Positions 43,639 through 64,000 of a stretch of DNA of 64,000 nt are shown here, piece by piece (the first letter of the stretch is position 1; every line of letters starts with the position of its first letter). The stretch lies in assembly GCA_947304395.1 (NCBI GenBank), contig CAMZBA010000005.1, forward strand, positions 1-64,000, written 5' to 3'. The stretch is from an uncultured Candidatus Saccharibacteria bacterium. GTDB taxonomy: Bacteria > Patescibacteriota > Saccharimonadia > Saccharimonadales > Saccharimonadaceae. Both the position numbers and the translations under genes were made by a program. A model generated the notes under the pieces. The model was not told where the DNA came from and searched no databases. It saw only the letters and a program-made list of their open reading frames with translations.

Positions 43639-44715
43639 GTGAGACATATAGAGAAATATGGATTAATATTTAGTTTTTTAATGGCAGTTTTTGTGGCTCC
43701 GTCGGTTGGTGCGACTAGCGCGAGGGTAGCGGATAATCCAAATAGTGCGCAATGAATTGGCGTTTCGCACAGTATGACCGGCTTAACGAATTCTGCAAAT
43801 AATAGTTATACATTCAATATAATTCAGGACGAACAGAATCCGGCCATAGTAGAAAATATGCCGACCGAGCTAGAAATGAGTTTTCGCGGTTCGCCAGATG
43901 AGAACGGTATAGTTAACGTAACGAGCCAACTCGATATTGGACAATTGGATTTTACGGCTTTGGGCGATTATAAGTTTTCAATACGCGAGGTAGCATCTTC
44001 CGATGCATCGAATTACCCAGTCGATAATGATGATGAGTTTTTCTTTTATGTTAGCGTACGAAATAAATTAGATGAGAATAATCATCCAACTGGCGAATAT
44101 ATAGCAAGCTTGAGTAGCCAAGTAAAGAATCATGATACTGGCGAAAAAGAAGATGCGATATTTCAGTCGAGCGCGACTAGAAGCTATGTGCGAGTAACAA
44201 ATAAAGTGACTGGTAATTTGGCAAATGAAAACGATTATTTCAAGTATCGAATTGAGTTCGAAAATGCACCAGAAGGTGATGAATATGTAGTTTCTGGACA
44301 GGATGCGGTAGTAAATTATAAAGGCGAATCAATTTCGACTGTTAGTAAAATAGTTGTTGGCCAGGATAACTATATATACCTAAAGCACGGCCAGACAGCA
44401 ACGATTGGCTTGAACGGCAATTACGATGAATTGCCGATTGGGCTTAGCTATAGGCTAGTTGAGGTTGAGGGGAACGGCTATGCGCAGTATGTTGATGGTG
44501 TGGCCGGCGATACTTCAGCTACGAAGACTGTCGCGGTAGATGCGGATAGTAGCGGAAATATTGTAAGCTTTATTAATCATAAAGAAGGCGATATCTTGAC
44601 TGGCATAGTAATGAATGTTCTGCCATATCTGCTAGCTATTAGCGCGATCGGCGGTCTGGCGTTGGCATGGAGGGTGATTAAGAAAAAACATAAAGAAACA
44701 AAATGCTCAAGATAA
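43639..44715 (+). CDS. Spy0128/FctA-like sortase-dependent pilin with in-frame TGA
   Basis: The GTG at 43639 lies 4 nt after GGAGGT. A signal peptide follows (1-26, ending SVGATSA), then a TGA at codon 39 (43753-43755), then an open frame to codon 358. The body has a Spy0128-type pilin domain (LGDYKFSIREVASSDASNYP, FFFYVSVRN) and a second, Cna-B-like region. The C-terminus reads GDILTGIVMNVLPYLL plus membrane helix and IKKKHK. It lines up with the EVPTG...APY...KKK sorting signal of the streptococcal backbone pilin, with LTG for PTG. It overlaps the next gene by 13 nt. The TGA means either pseudogene, read-through or a sequencing error. A start at the internal ATG 43774 would lack the signal peptide. 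Confidence 0.72.
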
Positions 44716-45005
44716 GAAACAAGGCGTGGCGAGGGTGGGCGCGCCTGGTGATGAAAGTATTATTTGTTAGCGGATCAATTTATTTGTTGTTTGGAGTATT
44801 ATTTGGGGTTGCTCGCGGGGTAGGGGCGTCTGACGGGGAAATGTTACTGTATTGTAGAATATGCAGACAATATGTGGCCGGAGATGTCTTATTAATGAGT
44901 GATGGGCGTTGCGTTGAATATGGCAATGGTGGCGGTGGGATGGTGGCGGGAAAGATTATAGCTCAACTAGGCGTGCGGAATTTTACGTATGAAACTAGTG
45001 AATAA
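44703..45005 (+). CDS. SipA-like signal-peptidase homologue (probably non-catalytic)
   Basis: 100 aa. One N-terminal membrane helix (about 17-38) is followed by a short region with YVAGDVLLM, like the GDVVLV loop of type I signal peptidases, and MVAGKIIAQLG, like the later KxVAxPG strand. The catalytic SM and Lys boxes are not apparent. In streptococcal FCT pilus loci a catalytically degenerate signal-peptidase homologue (SipA/Spy0127) sits beside the backbone pilin and sortase and is needed for assembly. The position and overlaps here (13 nt with the pilin, 17 nt with the sortase) fit that role. Family assignment is tentative. Confidence 0.5.
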   Translation: MLKIRNKAWRGWARLVMKVLFVSGSIYLLFGVLFGVARGVGASDGEMLLYCRICRQYVAGDVLLMSDGRCVEYGNGGGGMVAGKIIAQLGVRNFTYETSE

Positions 45006-45699
45006 CTTACTAAACTTTATTATATACGTAGCATTAGCGCCGCTTGTCTTGGTTAGTTTATATGTGATATATGATAGCTGCAAGGTTTCTAAATCGGCCG
45101 TTATAGACGCTTCATTAGTATCATTAGTAAATCAAGATGGAGATGAAGTTTTTGACGCTTTGGAAGAAGAAAGTGAGTATACGATTGCTTGGTTACGAAT
45201 TGAAGGGACTAATATAAATTATCCAGTAGTGAAAGGAAAAGATAATGCTTGGTTCTTGAATAGAAACTATAGGGGAGAATTTGCGACTGCAGGGAGTCTA
45301 TTTTTAGATTATAGAAATGAGGGTGATTTTAGTGACGCCTTCTCGATTATTTATGGTCACAGGATGGGGAATGGCGAGATGTTTTCTGACATACAAAAAT
45401 TCAAAAATGACGATTTCTTCAGTGCACACAAAGGGGGGGTATTGAAGCGGCGAGGTGGCAGTTATGGGTTGGAAATATCTGCTTATGCAGAGGTAAATTC
45501 GAAAGACTGAAATATATATAATACCGAAGTGAGTCGCAACAATAATAGCTTTGCCGTAACGAAGATGATATTTGATAATGCGATTCATAAGCGCGGTCGC
45601 GGGGATAGTGGTCGCTTTATATTGTTATCGACATGCGACGGCGAGAGTAAGGATAGGCGAGACGTGTTGCTTGTTCGTATAATGGATGACGATAGTTAG
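44989..45699 (+). CDS. Class B-type sortase with in-frame TGA before the catalytic Cys
   Basis: Membrane transpeptidase. One N-terminal helix (about 6-26) precedes a sortase domain of class B type (IAWLRIEGTNINYPVV, DNAWFLNRNYRGEF, LFLDYRN). The catalytic His124 lies in IYGHRMGNGEMF. A TGA at codon 174 (45508-45510) interrupts it. The same frame then continues through IYNTEV to LLSTCDGE (Cys216) and RDVLLVRI (Arg230) and stops at TAG 45697-45699. The stopped product would lack Cys and Arg. Streptococcal pilus polymerase Spy0129 is also class B, matching the pilin/SipA context. Confidence 0.78.
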
Positions 45700-48600
45700 A
45701 GGTCCCACCAGGTTGGTCTTGTAATTTCGGAAGGAATATTGAGGAACATGTTGCCTTTTTCGAGTACGCTTGACGTATCCCAGCCGTTAAGAACGGTGAG
45801 CGATGTTATGCCGCTATCGTAGGCAAACATATAGCTCATATTAGTCACGTTTGATACGTCCCAGCCGCTTATTCCGGAGATATCTGTCAGCCCGCCGAGA
45901 TTCATGTAGGACATCTCATTCATGTCTGTGACGCTGCCGGTGTCCCAGTTGGAAAGATCATTGAAGTCGGTGAGATTTGCATATTGGAACATGCCGCTCA
46001 TGTCTGTAACGTTACTAACGTCCCATCCCTTTATTCCATCGCCATCTTGGAATCCTGTTGCATAGAACGTCCCGTGCATGTTTTCTACGTTGCTGGTATT
46101 CCAGTTTGTTAGGCCAGAAATATCCGAAAGCTCATTTACCGCAGAGAACATATCGCTCATATCGGTAACGTTGCTAGTGTTCCATTTTCTTAATGCATCA
46201 ACGTCTGCAAAAGCGCATTCAGAGAACATGTAATACATACTTGTAACGCTACTAGTATCCCAGTTTTCTAGCCCATCAATATCTGCTAAATTGCGAGCTA
46301 GGCCAAACATACTTCTCATATCTTCTACCTTGCTTGTGTCCCATTCGCTTAGGCCATCAACGTTCGTAATACCGGATTCTCTAAACATACTAGACATAGA
46401 TATTACCTTGCTCACATCCCAGTTCGCTAAGCCGTCGACGTTCGTGATGGATCTAGCCCCTTGGAACATGTTACCCATGGATTCGACGTTGCTTACGTCC
46501 CAATTTGCTAGAGGATCGAGACTCGTTGCACTCATGATGCCGTAAAATGTATAATCCATTTCGACCACGTTGCTCACATCCCAGTTGGCTAGCGGGCTTA
46601 AATCTTCTACTCTTTCTACACCGCTAAACGTCCCAAACATTGTTACTAGACTGCTAGTATTCCAGTTTGCTAGGCCAGAAATATCCTCTAAGCGCCAGTT
46701 GACGTATAATAGCCCATTCATGTCTTCAACGTTGCTTACGTCCCAATCTGACAAGAAGTCGACATTTTGGAAGTAGCAGTTGGCAAAAGAGAATTCTAGA
46801 GATGTAGTTTCGCTCATGTCCCAGTCCGCTATTCCCGATGCGTCGGATAACTCAGTGAAAGCATAGAATAATTGCGACATGTCTGGATTTCCTTTGATAG
46901 TGCTAGCTTCGGAGTAGATATAGATAGTGCCGTCATTGTCGTCAAACCAGGCATAAATTGGAATCTCCGAGTCGGGAGAAGAGATGTCTATAGCGTTCGC
47001 CATTTGCGCGGCAGATATGGAGTTGGCGGACTTGATGGCAGTTATTGTTTCGTTAGGCTCTGTGTAATCGGTAGTATTTTGGCCAGACAGACCCTTTAGC
47101 GCTAGATTGATGTTTATTCCCTCGTCTAGCTGCGCCGCTGTTCCTCCTTGGACGGCGCCATCCATGGATTTCTTGATATTAACCTTGGACCAAATTCCTT
47201 TAAGGGTGATGTCGTTATTTTGTATTCTTATGTAGTCGCCATTTAGTATACCGAGCGAGCCGTTAGCATCCTGCCAGCCTATAAAGTTGTATCCGTCGCA
47301 AGAGATAGAGTCAGCAGGGACTAATACGGTGGATAATGGTGTATAGTTGCCGCCTTGAGGCAAAGTTCCGTCATACGAGTCACAGCTGGCGGGCATATTG
47401 GCGTCATAAGTTACCTTATACTTGGCTTTTAGTACTGGGGTGGCGGTACTCACTACATTTTCATTAGGAATGTCTACCATCGTGGATGTTACGGATTCGT
47501 GCGTGTTGGTTGGGAGATAAGTGTTTTCGTCGTATGTAGTATTGTCTTTTAGTTGGACGTCTATGGTGAGTTCTGCGGATGCACCAGAACCGAACTCGTC
47601 AGAGAGGTTCCAAGTTATATATTGTCCTTCGTCGTCTTCTGCTAGCTCAAATTCGCCAGCAGAGGCGCTAATATCGGACGAGTTGGCAACCTCCCAATAG
47701 TCGTTATTAATATAATCCGTGAGGATGAAGTCACCAAATACGACTGGCTCATATAGTGATGTAACGAGGATGTTGTCTAGGGTGCCCATGTCTGCTGCGA
47801 ATTGCTGGTCAGAGATGTTTTTGACAGGTTCCAATATGTCACTGTCCATTTCGTATTGGATGCCGCTAATGAGCATATTTGGGTGGTTAGCTTTTAGAAT
47901 CCTATAGGTCGCCTCTTCGTTGGGCGTATCGAGATTTGGATAGCCGTCGGTTAGAAAAAGTAATGTAAGCTTACGTCCAGGCTGAGACTGGTATTCGGCG
48001 AGAACCTCACTAGCTTTCGTAAGACCAGCATTATAGTTGGTTTCGCCTATGGCGGTGAGGTTATCAATGGCGTCGTCAAGCTCATTTAGGTTATTGGTGA
48101 ATTCGCTTTGAATAGTTGCTGATGTACTGAAGTTTATTATTGCAACTCGACCATTATGGTTTGTTACTACTTCTTCGACTAGGCCCATGGTGTCGTTTTT
48201 CATTTGCTCAATCTTCTGCCCAACCATAGAGCCGGACGTATCTATAACTAATACGACATCGATTCCAGAGTTGTCTCTAACTTTGGCGATAGTGTCGACA
48301 TTGAACGTTATCTGAGCCGTATCGCCGCTAGTCCACTTAGCGCTCTTGGTTACATTCCAGGCGCCACCTTCATTGTTCTCAAAGCTAGTATGGGCGGAAG
48401 TTAAGGCAATGGATCTAATAATCTCCGTATAGTCTTCGGCGGAAGCATTATGAATAATGAAGCTGCCGGCAACTAGGAGTATAGCCAAAGTGGCGTAGGC
48501 GATGCGAGCAGGGATTCTTTTTGCACTCTTTGATGCCGATTCGATCTTTTGGAGTAGTTCTGCGGCGTAATTGCGTTTTTTATTCAGTAAAATGAGGGCT

Positions 48601-50460
48601 AAAATTGGTCCGCCGAGGGCGAAAGTGATCATGCCGACATATGGAAGAGCATCAAAGATCACGCCTGTAAGCGGGGCGGGTTCGGCGACGGTAGTGAAGG
48701 TTACGCTGGCGGTATATTCTTGGCTTTGATCAAGAACCTGGTTGTTGTCGGCAAGGGCACCAGTGAGTTTTACGGTGTTAGTGAGAGTTTGGCTCACGTT
48801 CTGACGGACGCGGTAGCTGGCGAAGATTTCCACGCTGGCGCCTGGAGCAATGCTAGCAATAGATGCAGTATCACTACCAACGATACCGTAGCTACCATTT
48901 GGCGATTCTTCAATAACGGCGCCAGCGAGAAGCTCACTGACGTAGACATCATGGATGGCGTACTCGGCAGTGTTAGTAATGGTAACTTTGAACTGGACAG
49001 TGTCACCGTAATCGTATTGATCCTTAGGATTTAGAATAACCTTCGTGAGAGTGGGGGCGAATTTGCCGGCGGGCGCAAGGCCCCATTCGCCATAGATAAC
49101 AACGTTCTTTTCTGGCATGGTAAAGGTGGCATTCTTGTACCAGCCGACAAATTCGTAACCTTCAGCGGTAGGATTAGCGGCAGTAGTGACCGTATCGCCA
49201 GGATAATGGTCAGTACAGGCCGGAAGAAGTGATTCAGCATTGGGTGGCAGAGTAGAGCCTTCAAATTCGTAACAGACCGTGTAGGAGATGCGAGTAAAGC
49301 TACCGTGAATAGTGACGTCATTTTCAGGCATAGTGAAGCCGGAGCCTGAGATGGTAGCGTCGGTAGTAGTCCAGCCGGAGAAACGATAGCCATCAATAAC
49401 ATCACCAGCTTGAAGCTCATTGAGAGATACTTCGCTACTAGCAGCATAGCTCTTTGGCCCTGGGGCAAGATAATCTGCTGGAGCGGCACCATCAATGGCG
49501 TAAGTGACGGTATAGGTTGGTACTACGGCATCTTTAACCCAAATACCAACAAAGTTAACGGCTTGGGTTGGCATAGCAAAAGAACCGTTTGTGACAGTCG
49601 TATCGGTGGTAGTCCAACCAGAGAAGGTATAGCCAGCCAAGGTTGGTGAGGTGGCGACAGTAACGGCCGTACTGGCAGGATAGCTTTGCGCGGTTGGTGC
49701 AGCAGGGGCGCCAGCTGGTACATCGCCAGTATAGCTATAGGTGACGGGGTAAGTAAGGGTTTCCACGCTTTCAATATATGCATGGACAGTATTGGAGATA
49801 GACGTAAGATCTTTCTCGGATGCTAGGGCGTTATTGTAAAAGTCGCGACGAGTTTCAGTAGCAGGAGTAGATGGATTATCGACGGAGCTAGGGGTCTTAG
49901 TAATAATGCCAACAGTAAGTTCGCAACCAGCCTTAAGTCTTTCGACCTTGAAGCTAACGGTACGAGTAGCGACGTCATAATGGAGGCCATGGTAGTAATA
50001 GGCGGTATCGTCGTTATTCCAGGTGCCAGCGTCGACTGCGGCCTCGTTAGTGTCATCAACGACTACACCAGAACAAGCAATGGAACTATCCGAACGTGAT
50101 GAGGCGCCAATTTTACCATTTGGCGTAGTGACAAAACCTTGAAAGATGAGTCCATCTGGGATACGGTCAGTAACGCTAATGCGACCGCTAGTGAGGTTAG
50201 CCATTTGAGTGTCGCTAGACTCAACACCATCAACATCAACGCCATCTTCTTGGACGGTGAGGTAATAGGTTAGGCGAGAGTTAAGTCTAACCTCGACGTC
50301 ATTGTCCGTAATGATGTCTGCAAAAATATTTACGGCGACTACCGTCAATATGGCTAAAAGCAAAAAAAGAGACAAAAAGGCTACGTGCTAAATGTCTTCT
50401 TTGATTCCCAATTCTGCGTGGCACTCCCCATCTCCTGGTGGGGAGAAAGCGGTTTGACAA
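45696..50460 (-). CDS. Giant surface protein: InlB repeats, internal sorting signal, second signal peptide, VWA, BspA-like repeats
   Basis: An unbroken frame of 1,559 codons runs 50375-45696. Its natural start is probably the TTG at 50460 after AGGAGG, which encodes a basic N-terminus (SNRFLPTRRW...) but is out of frame unless one T is removed from the T5 or T7 tract (50362-50378). Order (numbered from 50375): membrane/signal helix (5-22); conserved domain (30-200); three InlB-type repeats (205-430); DUF11-like domain; APLTGVIFDALPY plus helix and NKKR (about 568-600); a second signal peptide ending NASAED (about 645); VWA with intact MIDAS DTSGS (about 711); another InlB-type repeat; 14 BspA/DUF285-like repeats of about 28 aa (NWDTSxVxxMxxMF). 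Likely an adhesin. Confidence 0.82.
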
Positions 50461-59666: not shown

Positions 59667-62600
59667 ATGTTATTCAGGAGGAGTCCTGTAGCATCTCGCG
59701 CCAAGGAGCGCAAAACAAAAAGAGAGAAAAACGACAAGCTAGTCCGTATTTTGGTGGCTACGTTCTTGGGTGTTTTTGTCTCGGTCCTTTTTGTGAACCT
59801 GATTATTATAGGATATAGGACTTCCGTGGCTGAGTCTCTCGAGAATGGAACGCGCATCGAAGAAGAATCGGAGTTAGTATATTATCTAACGGTAAAATAT
59901 GATGGCGTTGATAAGTATGGCATAGAATCCAGTGATGCAGTTACTTCAAATATTAAGAGCGGAATAGTAGAGGTCGTTGATCGTATTCCAGATGGTCTTG
60001 AGTTTGTTGGCTTTCAAACAACGCAAACTGGACTTATTGGTGCGGTCAATCGTAGCGATGATACCATCTCTTGCCCTGGTCGCGTAATTGATGATACTAA
60101 CGAACAGTCCGCTGAGGCGGGGGTATGGAACGCGGCTCGCACGGAATTCACTTACCATGGATTGCATTATTATTCTGACACCAGAACGATAAAGTTTAAG
60201 GCAATAGATATTCAAGCCGGTTGTGATTTAGTGGTAGGTATTATTACAAAGACTCCATCTCTTGGAGACAGGGAGCGTATGGATTTTTATAATACTGGCA
60301 GGGTTGGCGAGAAACTCATCAATAAGGACTCGAACACTGTTCATGTCTGGATGGGTAAAGATACCACACCGTCAACTTATAATGTAACCTACAGCTATAC
60401 TGGCGATATACCGGAGGGCGCCCCTACGCCGCCTAGCAATCAATCATATACGCAGGGTTCGACTGTTGGTGTAGCCATGGAGCCGTCCATTGATGGATAT
60501 GAATTTTCAGGGTGGACGACGTCTGATGCTACTGTTAGCGATGGGGTGTTTACTATGCCAAGTAATAGTGTAAATTTTGTGGGTATCTTCACTGAAAAGC
60601 AGGACACTACGAAATACGCGGTCACTTACGCGATAAATGGCGATGCTCCAGCAGGTTACATTGCCCCTAAGGAAAAGTTTTACGAGGCTGGTGAAATTGT
60701 TAATTTAGATTCAACCCAAGCTAATGATGTTATTGATGATTATATTTTCTCCGGATGGGCATCCGACGGGTTGAATATAATTAATGGAAGCTTTGTGATG
60801 CCTGAAAGCAACGTTACTTTTACGGGCAGCTTTGCTCGTCAGACCTACAGTGTTACTTACGCTTTTGAGGGTGATATCTTACCGCCAAATGCGTCAACAT
60901 TGTTGCCCGAAACAGTAAGCTACCATGCTGGAGATGTCGTAACTCTCGCCGCTAATCCAAGCGCGGACGGCTATTACTTCATGGGGTGGTATAGCAAGTC
61001 GTCCTTTACTATGCCAGCAAATAATCTTGTAATATATGGCGAATGGATGGTTCAGGCGGGCGTTTTTTCGCCAACTATTTCGGTCAGTATTCCCAATCAA
61101 GAAGATAGTTATCATATTGATCAGACCGTAGAATTCGACGTTATTATTACGAATACAGCAGATTTTCCAATTACTAACGTTCAAGTGGTTGAGCAACTCG
61201 ACGGCGCAGTATTTATAACTGGAGCTGGCTATACTCTCTCGGAAGATTACCTTGCGACCATTCCTATTCTTGCTGCCGGCGAGAGTATTACACTAAAGGC
61301 GCAGTATGAGATTACGAAGGATGAGACTGGCGAGATTGCGAACGTCGTAGCTATATCTGGAGCTACGGCAGGTGAAGCGAATTATAATATCGACACGACC
61401 AAAGACTATACGGCTTCCGTTACTTTTAATACGAAAAGCTGGCAGGATATCCCAGTCCTAACTGGCGTGCGTATGGGCGATATATTATCATATGTGTCAA
61501 TCATAGTAATAGGAATAATTTGTATCAATGTACGAAAGATAACTACTCGCGAATCTAGTCTTTGGAAGTGGAGGACGAGCCTCTTCATTATTTCGAAATC
61601 GCGCCTTTATGCTTTCGTCGGTATATTTGTAATTATTTTAGTGTCTTCCTTCTCGATTTTTTTGGTTAGTAAAGTTTTCGCTACACCAACCGAGCCAATT
61701 CCGTCTATTGAGTTAGTATCGCAGCATGTCAGTTATATAAACGGCGAGTCGGGCGCATGGAAGGTGAATAAGCGGGCTGGCTGGACTGGTCGTAATACAG
61801 CCAGGATTATTATTGACGTAGATTCTCGGATGAAACTCCAAAACGAGGCTAATGATGTTCTTCTTGTTGTGGATAATGGCAATTCGATGGGAGGGGATAG
61901 GCTACAAGCGGCGAAAGGTGCTTTAATTAGTTTTACGAACGACTTCCTGGACGAAGGAGACAATAATAATATCGCTATTGTCACATTTAACCACGATTAT
62001 AATATTGAAACCGGTTTCACTAACGACCGCGATTTATTGCTGTCGGAAATTTCGAACATTACTACCGAAGACGCCATCGACGGCGGTGAAAAAACAAATT
62101 ACTATCAAGGGCTAAATGGTGCCGAGCGCTTACTGCGTGATTACATCCAACGCGATAATCGAAATGTAACGATTGTTTTCTTGACCGATGGCATTCCAAA
62201 TGAAGAGCTCTTGTATCAAAATGCAGAATATCAGCTTATTAAGCACAAATATTCTTTTGTTACTATTAATGCTATTCAATATGAAATGGGTGACGCTGTT
62301 ATTAGAGATTTAGCCGCAATATCGGATAGTCAATTCGTTGCGAGCAGGAATAACCTTGTTGATGTAATACCCGAGGCATCTATCGCCCCATATAAATATG
62401 ACGAATTTGTCCTTACGGATCATATAGATGATGAATTCTTTACAATTTCGGGTCTCGATGCCATTCGCGCAAATAGGGGCACGGTAACATTAGAATACGA
62501 AGGCTCTACTCCTGGAATAATGTGGGATATAAGCGGCGCACTTCGCTCTGGGTTTTCAGCTCACATGGAGATAGATATAAGACTCAAAGACGAATATATC

Positions 62601-64000
62601 GCCGAGCCAGGGCTGTATTCGACTAACAAAAATGCATCAGTAATATCATCCTTGTATGATACTGCTAGCGAAAACGTAACTACTGAGTCTACGCCAGTAC
62701 TTAAGACTGACTATAATGTCACCTATATACCTAATGCTCCAAGCGATTGTAGTGTGTCTGGCATACCAAACCAAGAAACCCATTTCGTATATACGGCCGT
62801 AGAAATAGCAGATACTGTCCCAACATGTAGTGGGTATAATTTCGCCGGCTATGAGATTGTGGAAAACCAAGTTACTAGACTTAATGACGATTATTTTCGC
62901 ATGCCAGACAAGAACATTACGCTCGGTGCGACTTGGACAAAAGTTGATTTAGGAAAGCGCATGGAGGGCACGGTTCACGTTGCTAAGACTCTTTATAACG
63001 AAATCGCTAAAAGGTCTATTGCGCAGGGTTCCAATGGTGGATTCAATTTAGATAGTGGGCTCAACTTCGGCAACGCTTCGTCTGCTACTAATGGTGATGG
63101 CGCTAATACCGTCGCGTCAACGGCGAGCGACGAGTATCCGATTCATTATTTCCGTGGTGCCGTCGCGGACAATAATGTACTATTCGCAGGTATTTGTTGG
63201 AAGGCCCTACGCACCACTAGCACGGGTGGCGTAAAACTGGTATATAACGGGAAAGTGGGTGGCGATAATCAATGCGACAATTCCCGCGGCACGCATGATG
63301 GTTTTGGCAATAGAACATCGCTGAGTCTTCCTGATAATTATTACTACGGTACTGACTATATATATAATGAGAACACCAAGACTTTCGTTCTATCGGGCGT
63401 AAAATATCTTGCTAGATGGGATGCTACCACGGGCGACTCGCTCGTAGGGAAATATACCTGCAGGAGCGCAAACGAGAATGGCTCTTGTGCGACTATGTAT
63501 TATGTGGAATCTAGACGAGATGATAGCTCTGCTTTTGTTTTGCCGTTAAGCTCTTCTATGTCATATTACGCGATTGGTAAAATGCAGTTTAATCCTAGCA
63601 CCGATTCTATGGCCTATGTTGGATATATGTATGGGGATGTCTACTCTCGTGACAATATGACTATTTCCTCATCGCAAAGTTATGTATCGGATGCAGCAAT
63701 TCTTTTCGAAACTTCACTTAGCGCCGATTTCTACTATGCCGATAATATGACTTACGGCACTGAGGTGGCGGGCAAATATAGTCTCGTTAATCCATATCAA
63801 GTCGGATCCGCTTCGGACTATGCTAGCCTAGTCGGGAAATATACTTTCCGCGCTAGCCAGAGCGACTACAGCAATAATGTCATCTACTATATTGTCGCCG
63901 TGGAAGACTCCAAGATGTATTATCTTGAAATGCGAGACGGCGAAACCCTCCCAGATGTTGATACTAGTTATATGGTTGGCGACACTATTTTAGATAATGG
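59667..64000 (+). CDS. Giant surface protein (paralogue of 45696-50460), running off the window
   Basis: Open for at least 1,444 codons from the ATG at 59667 (GGAGAA SD 6 nt upstream) to the window end; I read every codon and found no stop. Order: basic N-terminus and signal/membrane helix (about 30-50); domain shared with the paralogue (60-210); three InlB-type repeats (about 235-465); DUF11-like domain; PVLTGVRMGDILSYV plus helix and NVRK (L598); a second signal peptide ending KVFA/TP (about residue 672); VWA domain (MIDAS reads DNGNS at 736-740); an InlB-type repeat; then from about 1,130 a different C-terminal part with HYFRGAVADNNVLFAGICWK, a module I recall from Firmicutes and TM7 surface proteins. 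Probably an adhesin. Confidence 0.85.
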   Translation, partial: MLFRRSPVASRAKERKTKREKNDKLVRILVATFLGVFVSVLFVNLIIIGYRTSVAESLENGTRIEEESELVYYLTVKYDGVDKYGIESSDAVTSNIKSGIVEVVDRIPDGLEFVGFQTTQTGLIGAVNRSDDTISCPGRVIDDTNEQSAEAGVWNAARTEFTYHGLHYYSDTRTIKFKAIDIQAGCDLVVGIITKTPSLGDRERMDFYNTGRVGEKLINKDSNTVHVWMGKDTTPSTYNVTYSYTGDIPEGAPTPPSNQSYTQGSTVGVAMEPSIDGYEFSGWTTSDATVSDGVFTMPSNSVNFVGIFTEKQDTTKYAVTYAINGDAPAGYIAPKEKFYEAGEIVNLDSTQANDVIDDYIFSGWASDGLNIINGSFVMPESNVTFTGSFARQTYSVTYAFEGDILPPNASTLLPETVSYHAGDVVTLAANPSADGYYFMGWYSKSSFTMPANNLVIYGEWMVQAGVFSPTISVSIPNQEDSYHIDQTVEFDVIITNTADFPITNVQVVEQLDGAVFITGAGYTLSEDYLATIPILAAGESITLKAQYEITKDETGEIANVVAISGATAGEANYNIDTTKDYTASVTFNTKSWQDIPVLTGVRMGDILSYVSIIVIGIICINVRKITTRESSLWKWRTSLFIISKSRLYAFVGIFVIILVSSFSIFLVSKVFATPTEPIPSIELVSQHVSYINGESGAWKVNKRAGWTGRNTARIIIDVDSRMKLQNEANDVLLVVDNGNSMGGDRLQAAKGALISFTNDFLDEGDNNNIAIVTFNHDYNIETGFTNDRDLLLSEISNITTEDAIDGGEKTNYYQGLNGAERLLRDYIQRDNRNVTIVFLTDGIPNEELLYQNAEYQLIKHKYSFVTINAIQYEMGDAVIRDLAAISDSQFVASRNNLVDVIPEASIAPYKYDEFVLTDHIDDEFFTISGLDAIRANRGTVTLEYEGSTPGIMWDISGALRSGFSAHMEIDIRLKDEYIAEPGLYSTNKNASVISSLYDTASENVTTESTPVLKTDYNVTYIPNAPSDCSVSGIPNQETHFVYTAVEIADTVPTCSGYNFAGYEIVENQVTRLNDDYFRMPDKNITLGATWTKVDLGKRMEGTVHVAKTLYNEIAKRSIAQGSNGGFNLDSGLNFGNASSATNGDGANTVASTASDEYPIHYFRGAVADNNVLFAGICWKALRTTSTGGVKLVYNGKVGGDNQCDNSRGTHDGFGNRTSLSLPDNYYYGTDYIYNENTKTFVLSGVKYLARWDATTGDSLVGKYTCRSANENGSCATMYYVESRRDDSSAFVLPLSSSMSYYAIGKMQFNPSTDSMAYVGYMYGDVYSRDNMTISSSQSYVSDAAILFETSLSADFYYADNMTYGTEVAGKYSLVNPYQVGSASDYASLVGKYTFRASQSDYSNNVIYYIVAVEDSKMYYLEMRDGETLPDVDTSYMVGDTILDN

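Follow-up and report, generated by a model that had tools for sequence, protein, structure and literature searches.

A fused surface-protein gene of gut Saccharibacteria with an internal sorting signal and a second signal peptide: a putative surface polyprotein

A 64,000-nucleotide stretch from an uncultured Candidatus Saccharibacteria bacterium (GCA_947304395.1, contig CAMZBA010000005.1, positions 1 to 64,000; hereafter the window, to which all coordinates refer) contains two open reading frames (ORFs), labelled A (45696..50375) and B (59667 onward), in each of which two surface-protein modules are joined in a single frame. Module 1, an InlB/DUF11-type ectodomain, ends in an internal sortase-type sorting signal, and module 2, a VWA/BspA-type ectodomain, follows behind a basic linker and a second signal peptide (SP2). 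It is proposed, with a probability of roughly 0.55, that the fused product is a surface polyprotein that would be exported twice, with sortase and signal peptidase I dividing it into two surface proteins. That one gene would yield a pilus adhesin and its VWA partner in a 1:1 ratio, with sortase and signal peptidase separating the two once they are beyond the cytoplasm, is given about even odds. The proposal draws on the plan of the gene, its conservation, the existence of relatives with split modules, and the operon slot it occupies; the topology, both cleavages, attachment to a pilus, and the fate of module 2 are predictions made from these.

The first-pass annotation of this DNA had noticed an internal sorting signal followed by a second signal peptide within one ORF, and both are found in A, at residues 567-601 and 625-646, respectively (Table 1). 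The combination of an LPxTG-like motif, a hydrophobic helix, and basic residues that characterizes sortase substrates is present in A (APLTG) and in B (PVLTG), although the position is not C-terminal, as about 960 residues follow the signal in A. Likewise, SP2 possesses the basic n-region, h-region, and A-x-A of a signal peptidase I site, with the short h-region, polar c-region, and conserved A-x-A typical of a cleavable signal peptide. Pfam matches in A are partitioned accordingly, with InlB/Flg_new, SHIRT, and DUF11 upstream of residue ~546, and VWA and DUF285 (BspA-type) repeats from residue ~700 onward. Paralogue B shares the plan, as the first-pass annotation had stated, with its PVLTG-helix followed by an SP2 ending VFA/TP.

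A search detected homologues in 30 of the 45 genomes of the genus, which comprises tiny gut Saccharibacteria. Among the fetched loci, modules 1 and 2 share one frame in 27 distinct ORFs from 11 of the 45 genomes, a count that includes nine near-copies in a single genome (G030), one ORF (L073) included on visual inspection of its junction and VWA-like sequence, and a few ORFs cut by contig ends past the junction. The fused ORFs are widely diverged, with 25-53% identity to A in alignment, and when 394 genomes of the family were searched with a profile, matches spanning the full length of both modules were confined to this genus, those elsewhere being partial. Since 27 strongly diverged ORFs in 11 genomes follow the same plan, a join created by assembly or sequencing is ruled out, in agreement with the first-pass annotation.

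A decaying or artefactual fusion without function is largely refuted as well, and is regarded as highly improbable. It derives some support from the start of copy A, where the in-frame basic n-region of signal peptide 1 (SP1) is lacking owing to a one-base split in a T7 tract; the plan is nevertheless open in 11 genomes at 25-53% identity to A, both signals are conserved, and B is intact. Homologues carry a basic n-region ahead of SP1, and in A the expected n-region lies in a different frame, beginning at GTG 50424 behind the Shine-Dalgarno sequence AGGAG. The frame of A had been taken to extend to 50460, but it stops at 50375, with a TAG just upstream of the TTG start. Copy A may therefore carry a real frameshift mutation, be phase-variable, or have been mis-sequenced at the T7 tract.

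The two junction signals are conserved to a degree that their surroundings are not. An xTG stands immediately ahead of the first helix in 22 of the 27 fusions, and two more have a PKTxD variant, a tail that also occurs on stand-alone module 1; the -1 residue after SP2 is Ala in 26 of 27. Across 12 aligned A-type fusions, the -1 Ala is found in 12/12 and the sorting TG in 11/12, with mean pairwise identities of 1.00 and 0.83, respectively, compared with 0.21 over the linker and 0.13 at +1/+2. Conservation of the -1 Ala and TG beside a variable linker and variable +1/+2 positions is what selection on the cut sites, and not on the linker, would be expected to produce. The linkers carry a net charge of about +3 to +8 in those fusions with both helices correctly placed (the script misplaced them in L063 and L070).

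The same segments could instead be plain membrane helices, such that the product would remain an uncut hairpin membrane protein, one chain displaying two linked ectodomains. The two-helix hairpin is indeed present in all 27 fusions, including the five without a junction TG, and a permanent link would both ensure strict 1:1 display and hold in place a module 2 that has no other anchor. However, an invariant -1 Ala next to variable +1/+2 positions, and a conserved TG next to an unconserved linker, weigh against plain helices; moreover, module 2 of split relatives has an ordinary signal peptide, and operons that begin with the fused gene include a class B sortase of their own. The uncut hairpin is considered unlikely. 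A separate translation start for module 2 was also entertained. The linker of A and of many homologues contains no start codon, the sole candidate in A being a TTG within SP2, so internal initiation is unlikely and was set aside for these genes; some homologues do possess an in-frame ATG, GTG, or TTG in the linker.

In four relatives (G015, G029, G040, and G043), the two modules are encoded by adjacent separate genes that overlap by ~10 nt or are parted by a gap of <10 nt, and are translationally coupled; in G015 they even lie in the same frame, parted only by TAG and two codons. In the split relatives, module 2 has its own ordinary signal peptide, and the stand-alone module 1 of relatives and of Bacilli has its sorting signal at the C-terminus. 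Other arrangements include a module 2 that is the last gene of a pilus operon (G002), reversed gene order (G028 and G044), and modules that lie apart (G010). In metagenome-assembled genomes of gut Bacilli (L192, L196-L199, and L201), module 2 is followed by module 1 as separate genes. Given that the modules are separate both in relatives and in gut Bacilli, the fused gene looks like two neighbouring surface-protein genes that were joined, each apparently retaining its own signals. The first-pass annotation had held that homologues encoded as two genes, joined here by a sequencing error, would undo its reading; the two genes do exist in relatives, while the error is contradicted by the 27 diverged fused ORFs. 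The module trees require three (module 1) or four (module 2) switches between the fused and split states, two of them forced by strongly supported branches.

The same module pair also occurs in uncultured gut Bacilli, in some cases close to a class B sortase gene, which suggests that it was exchanged between Bacilli and Saccharibacteria. Module 1 tails in the Bacilli are of the C-terminal LPNTG-helix-KKKR type in some cases and carry a PNTxD variant in others. More broadly, P-[KNST]-T-x-D replaces LPxTG ahead of the helix in module 1 tails of Saccharibacteria and of Bacilli/Clostridia (L061, L075, L069, L071, L072, L076, L198, L199, L201, and L205), and is a possible alternative sorting motif.

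The first-pass annotation had overlooked the disrupted start of copy A and also the genomic context, which places module 1 in candidate pilus operons. Stand-alone module 1 heads operons with the order module 1, pilin (DUF7601 type), S26-like protein, and class B sortase (L068, L069, L071, L074, and L087; truncated in L039, L040, and L042). Fused genes occupy the same first slot in L054 and L066 (the latter being B), and a pilin follows the fused gene in L049, L050, and L065. Pilin with a sorting signal, pilus sortase, and putative adhesin are found together in one operon, the gene content expected of a sortase-assembled pilus locus.

Under the polyprotein reading, a single chain would undergo two rounds of export. 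The InlB/DUF11 ectodomain would be exported first, led by SP1, until the LTG helix halted transfer and left the basic tail and linker in the cytoplasm; SP2 would then re-enter the translocon and export the VWA/BspA ectodomain. A class B sortase would most likely cleave between T and G and move module 1, probably a tip or accessory adhesin, onto pilin or wall, and signal peptidase I would cleave after A-x-A to release module 2. The resulting products would match the pair encoded by two coupled genes in relatives.

Alternatively, sortase might cleave the LTG while SP2 persists as a signal anchor, rendering module 2 a type II membrane protein. There is precedent for a sortase motif with a protein behind it: although sorting signals had been described in the first-pass annotation as normally strictly C-terminal, in Gram-positive M26 IgA1 metalloproteases the LPXTG is N-terminal and the remainder of the enzyme follows it (PMC9637739). 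Such an arrangement would also anchor the otherwise anchorless module 2. Nevertheless, the short h-region, polar c-region, and conserved A-x-A of SP2 are of the cleavable type, and this alternative is judged improbable, more so than the uncut hairpin.

Several observations weigh against the polyprotein. Module 2 lacks an anchor at its C-terminus and would be left unattached by full cleavage. The junction TG is absent in 5/27 fusions (L061, L075, L067, L063, and L043); the hairpin can therefore persist without a clear sorting motif. The S26-like proteins of the pilus loci lack the catalytic Lys, with Ser at that position, and are therefore probably not the makers of the second cut, so that the local S26-like protein is a doubtful candidate; the genome does, however, encode a housekeeping signal peptidase I (contig C3), whose Ser/Lys motifs are GGSM and KRVI. 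Moreover, the module trees leave the number and direction of fusion events unfixed, with rooting open, and copy A possibly has a broken SP1.

Table 1. Positions of the fused ORFs, their internal signals, and the neighbouring pilus operon in the window
Feature	Position	Strand	Remarks
Fused ORF A	45696..50375	-	1559 aa, TTG start; (partial) SP1, module 1, sorting signal, linker, SP2, VWA/BspA module 2
T7 tract in SP1	50362..50368	-	One-frame offset between GTG-started n-region and ORF A
Module 1 ectodomain, about residues 20-566	48678..50318	-	InlB/Flg_new and SHIRT repeats, DUF11 (Pfam; homologues)
Internal sorting signal APLTG-helix-NKKR, residues 567-601	48573..48677	-	APLTG, residues 567-571 (48663-48677); LTG, hydrophobic helix, and NKKR, residues 569-601 (48573-48671)
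Basic linker, residues 602-624	48504..48572	-	Predicted cytoplasmic; no in-frame ATG/GTG/TTG; 21% mean identity in relatives
SP2 IAYATLAILLVAGSFIIHNASA, residues 625-646	48438..48503	-	Hydrophobic segment ends NASA (646); predicted cut before ED (from 647)
Module 2, VWA domain and DUF285/BspA-type repeats	45699..48437	-	No C-terminal anchor
Paralogue B	59667..63998	+	Same plan, intact SP1; extends beyond window, 1836 aa in full
B internal sorting signal PVLTG-helix-RK	61452..61538	+	PVLTG, residues 596-600
B second signal peptide ...SKVFA/TP, residues 645-672	61599..61682	+	
Pilin gene, DUF7601	43639..44715	+	C-terminal LTG signal; GTG start 43639; in-frame TGA 43753-43755
Short S26/SipA-like protein	44703..45005	+	Assigned by position and visual resemblance
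Class B sortase	44989..45699	+	In-frame TGA 45508-45510, upstream of catalytic Cys/Arg

Convergent with ORF A lies an operon for pilin, S26-like protein, and sortase (43639-45699), in which the sortase matches solved class B sortases. Both its pilin and its sortase are interrupted by an in-frame TGA, that of the sortase preceding the catalytic Cys. A TGA at a Trp position is found in 8/8 sortase orthologues of the clade (G000, G003, G017, G019, G023, G030, G038, and G039), the other seven being 51-96% identical to the window copy. The site is shared by six of the eight, and the remaining two have TGG there and TGA at another Trp site; the G030 sortase has a second TGA close to the N-terminus. 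Downstream of the TGA, the catalytic motifs are kept, and synonymous change exceeds nonsynonymous change in diverged pairs. The pilins of the same eight genomes have one TGA each, in an identical alignment column just past the signal peptide, at which non-TGA pilins have varied residues; among the pilins listed, just one other contains a TGA, at a different column. Sortases of other clades (L252, L253, L254, and L265, from G035, G013, G028, and G027) also have TGA at Trp positions.

The conservation of these codons in both genes of the same eight genomes looks like programmed readthrough, and suggests that the UGA of the sortase would be read through as Trp; together, pilin and sortase look like a UGA-gated operon. 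A change of code to TGA=Trp is rejected because 12 other ORFs of the window end in TGA, release factor 2 (RF2) is present in the genome, and no tRNA with a UCA anticodon was found among the 39 tRNA genes detected. Just two genes for tRNA-Trp were detected, both CCA (L275 and L276, on contigs C16 and C21 of G000) and identical at 75/76 bases with differing flanks, in a 1 Mb genome. Both have five pairs in the anticodon stem, which eliminates the four-base-pair form of tRNA-Trp (PMC13092985), and selenocysteine was dismissed as no selenocysteine tRNA was found. If confirmed, these UGA codons would represent an uncommon instance of a bacterial surface machine gated by stop-codon readthrough.

This work describes sortase-pilus operons in Saccharibacteria, for which a literature search found no dedicated paper. 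Should the polyprotein reading be correct, a sorting signal can work in the middle of a protein with a second signal peptide behind it, and two surface proteins can be produced in fixed ratio from one reading frame; the relatives in which the modules are two genes provide a ready-made comparison.

Among known systems, the pilus operons of the FCT region of Streptococcus pyogenes offer one parallel (PMC4049620; PMC3019223); they comprise a tip adhesin, a major pilin, SipA, and a class B sortase. SipA is signal-peptidase-like and essential for pilus polymerisation, yet has no catalytic residues (PMC4049620). The Saccharibacteria operons similarly encode an adhesin-like LTG protein, a pilin, an S26-like protein without a catalytic residue, and a class B sortase; they differ in the lineage that carries them, in a first gene fused to a VWA protein, and in their DUF7601-type pilin. 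A second parallel is FbcH of Bradyrhizobium (cytochrome b/c1), a single product with an internal signal sequence, located after a membrane segment, at which signal peptidase cuts. FbcH, however, is the precursor of a respiratory enzyme, whereas the fused ORFs encode two surface ectodomains and a sortase site. Searches of the literature on bacterial polyproteins and on FbcH turned up nothing of use, and we know of no described case of two large passengers with a retained second signal peptide. Finally, the M26 IgA1 metalloproteases (streptococcal IgA1P/Zmp, Gemella) share with the fused ORFs a large domain downstream of the sortase motif, which is near the N-terminus in M26 (PMC9637739). In the fused ORFs, by contrast, a ~540-residue ectodomain precedes the motif and an A-x-A signal peptide stands behind the helix; neither the M26 peptidase nor the G5 domain was found in ORF A by Pfam. 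Internal sorting signals are known from the IgA1 metalloproteases; the union of two large passengers with a retained signal peptide appears to be new.

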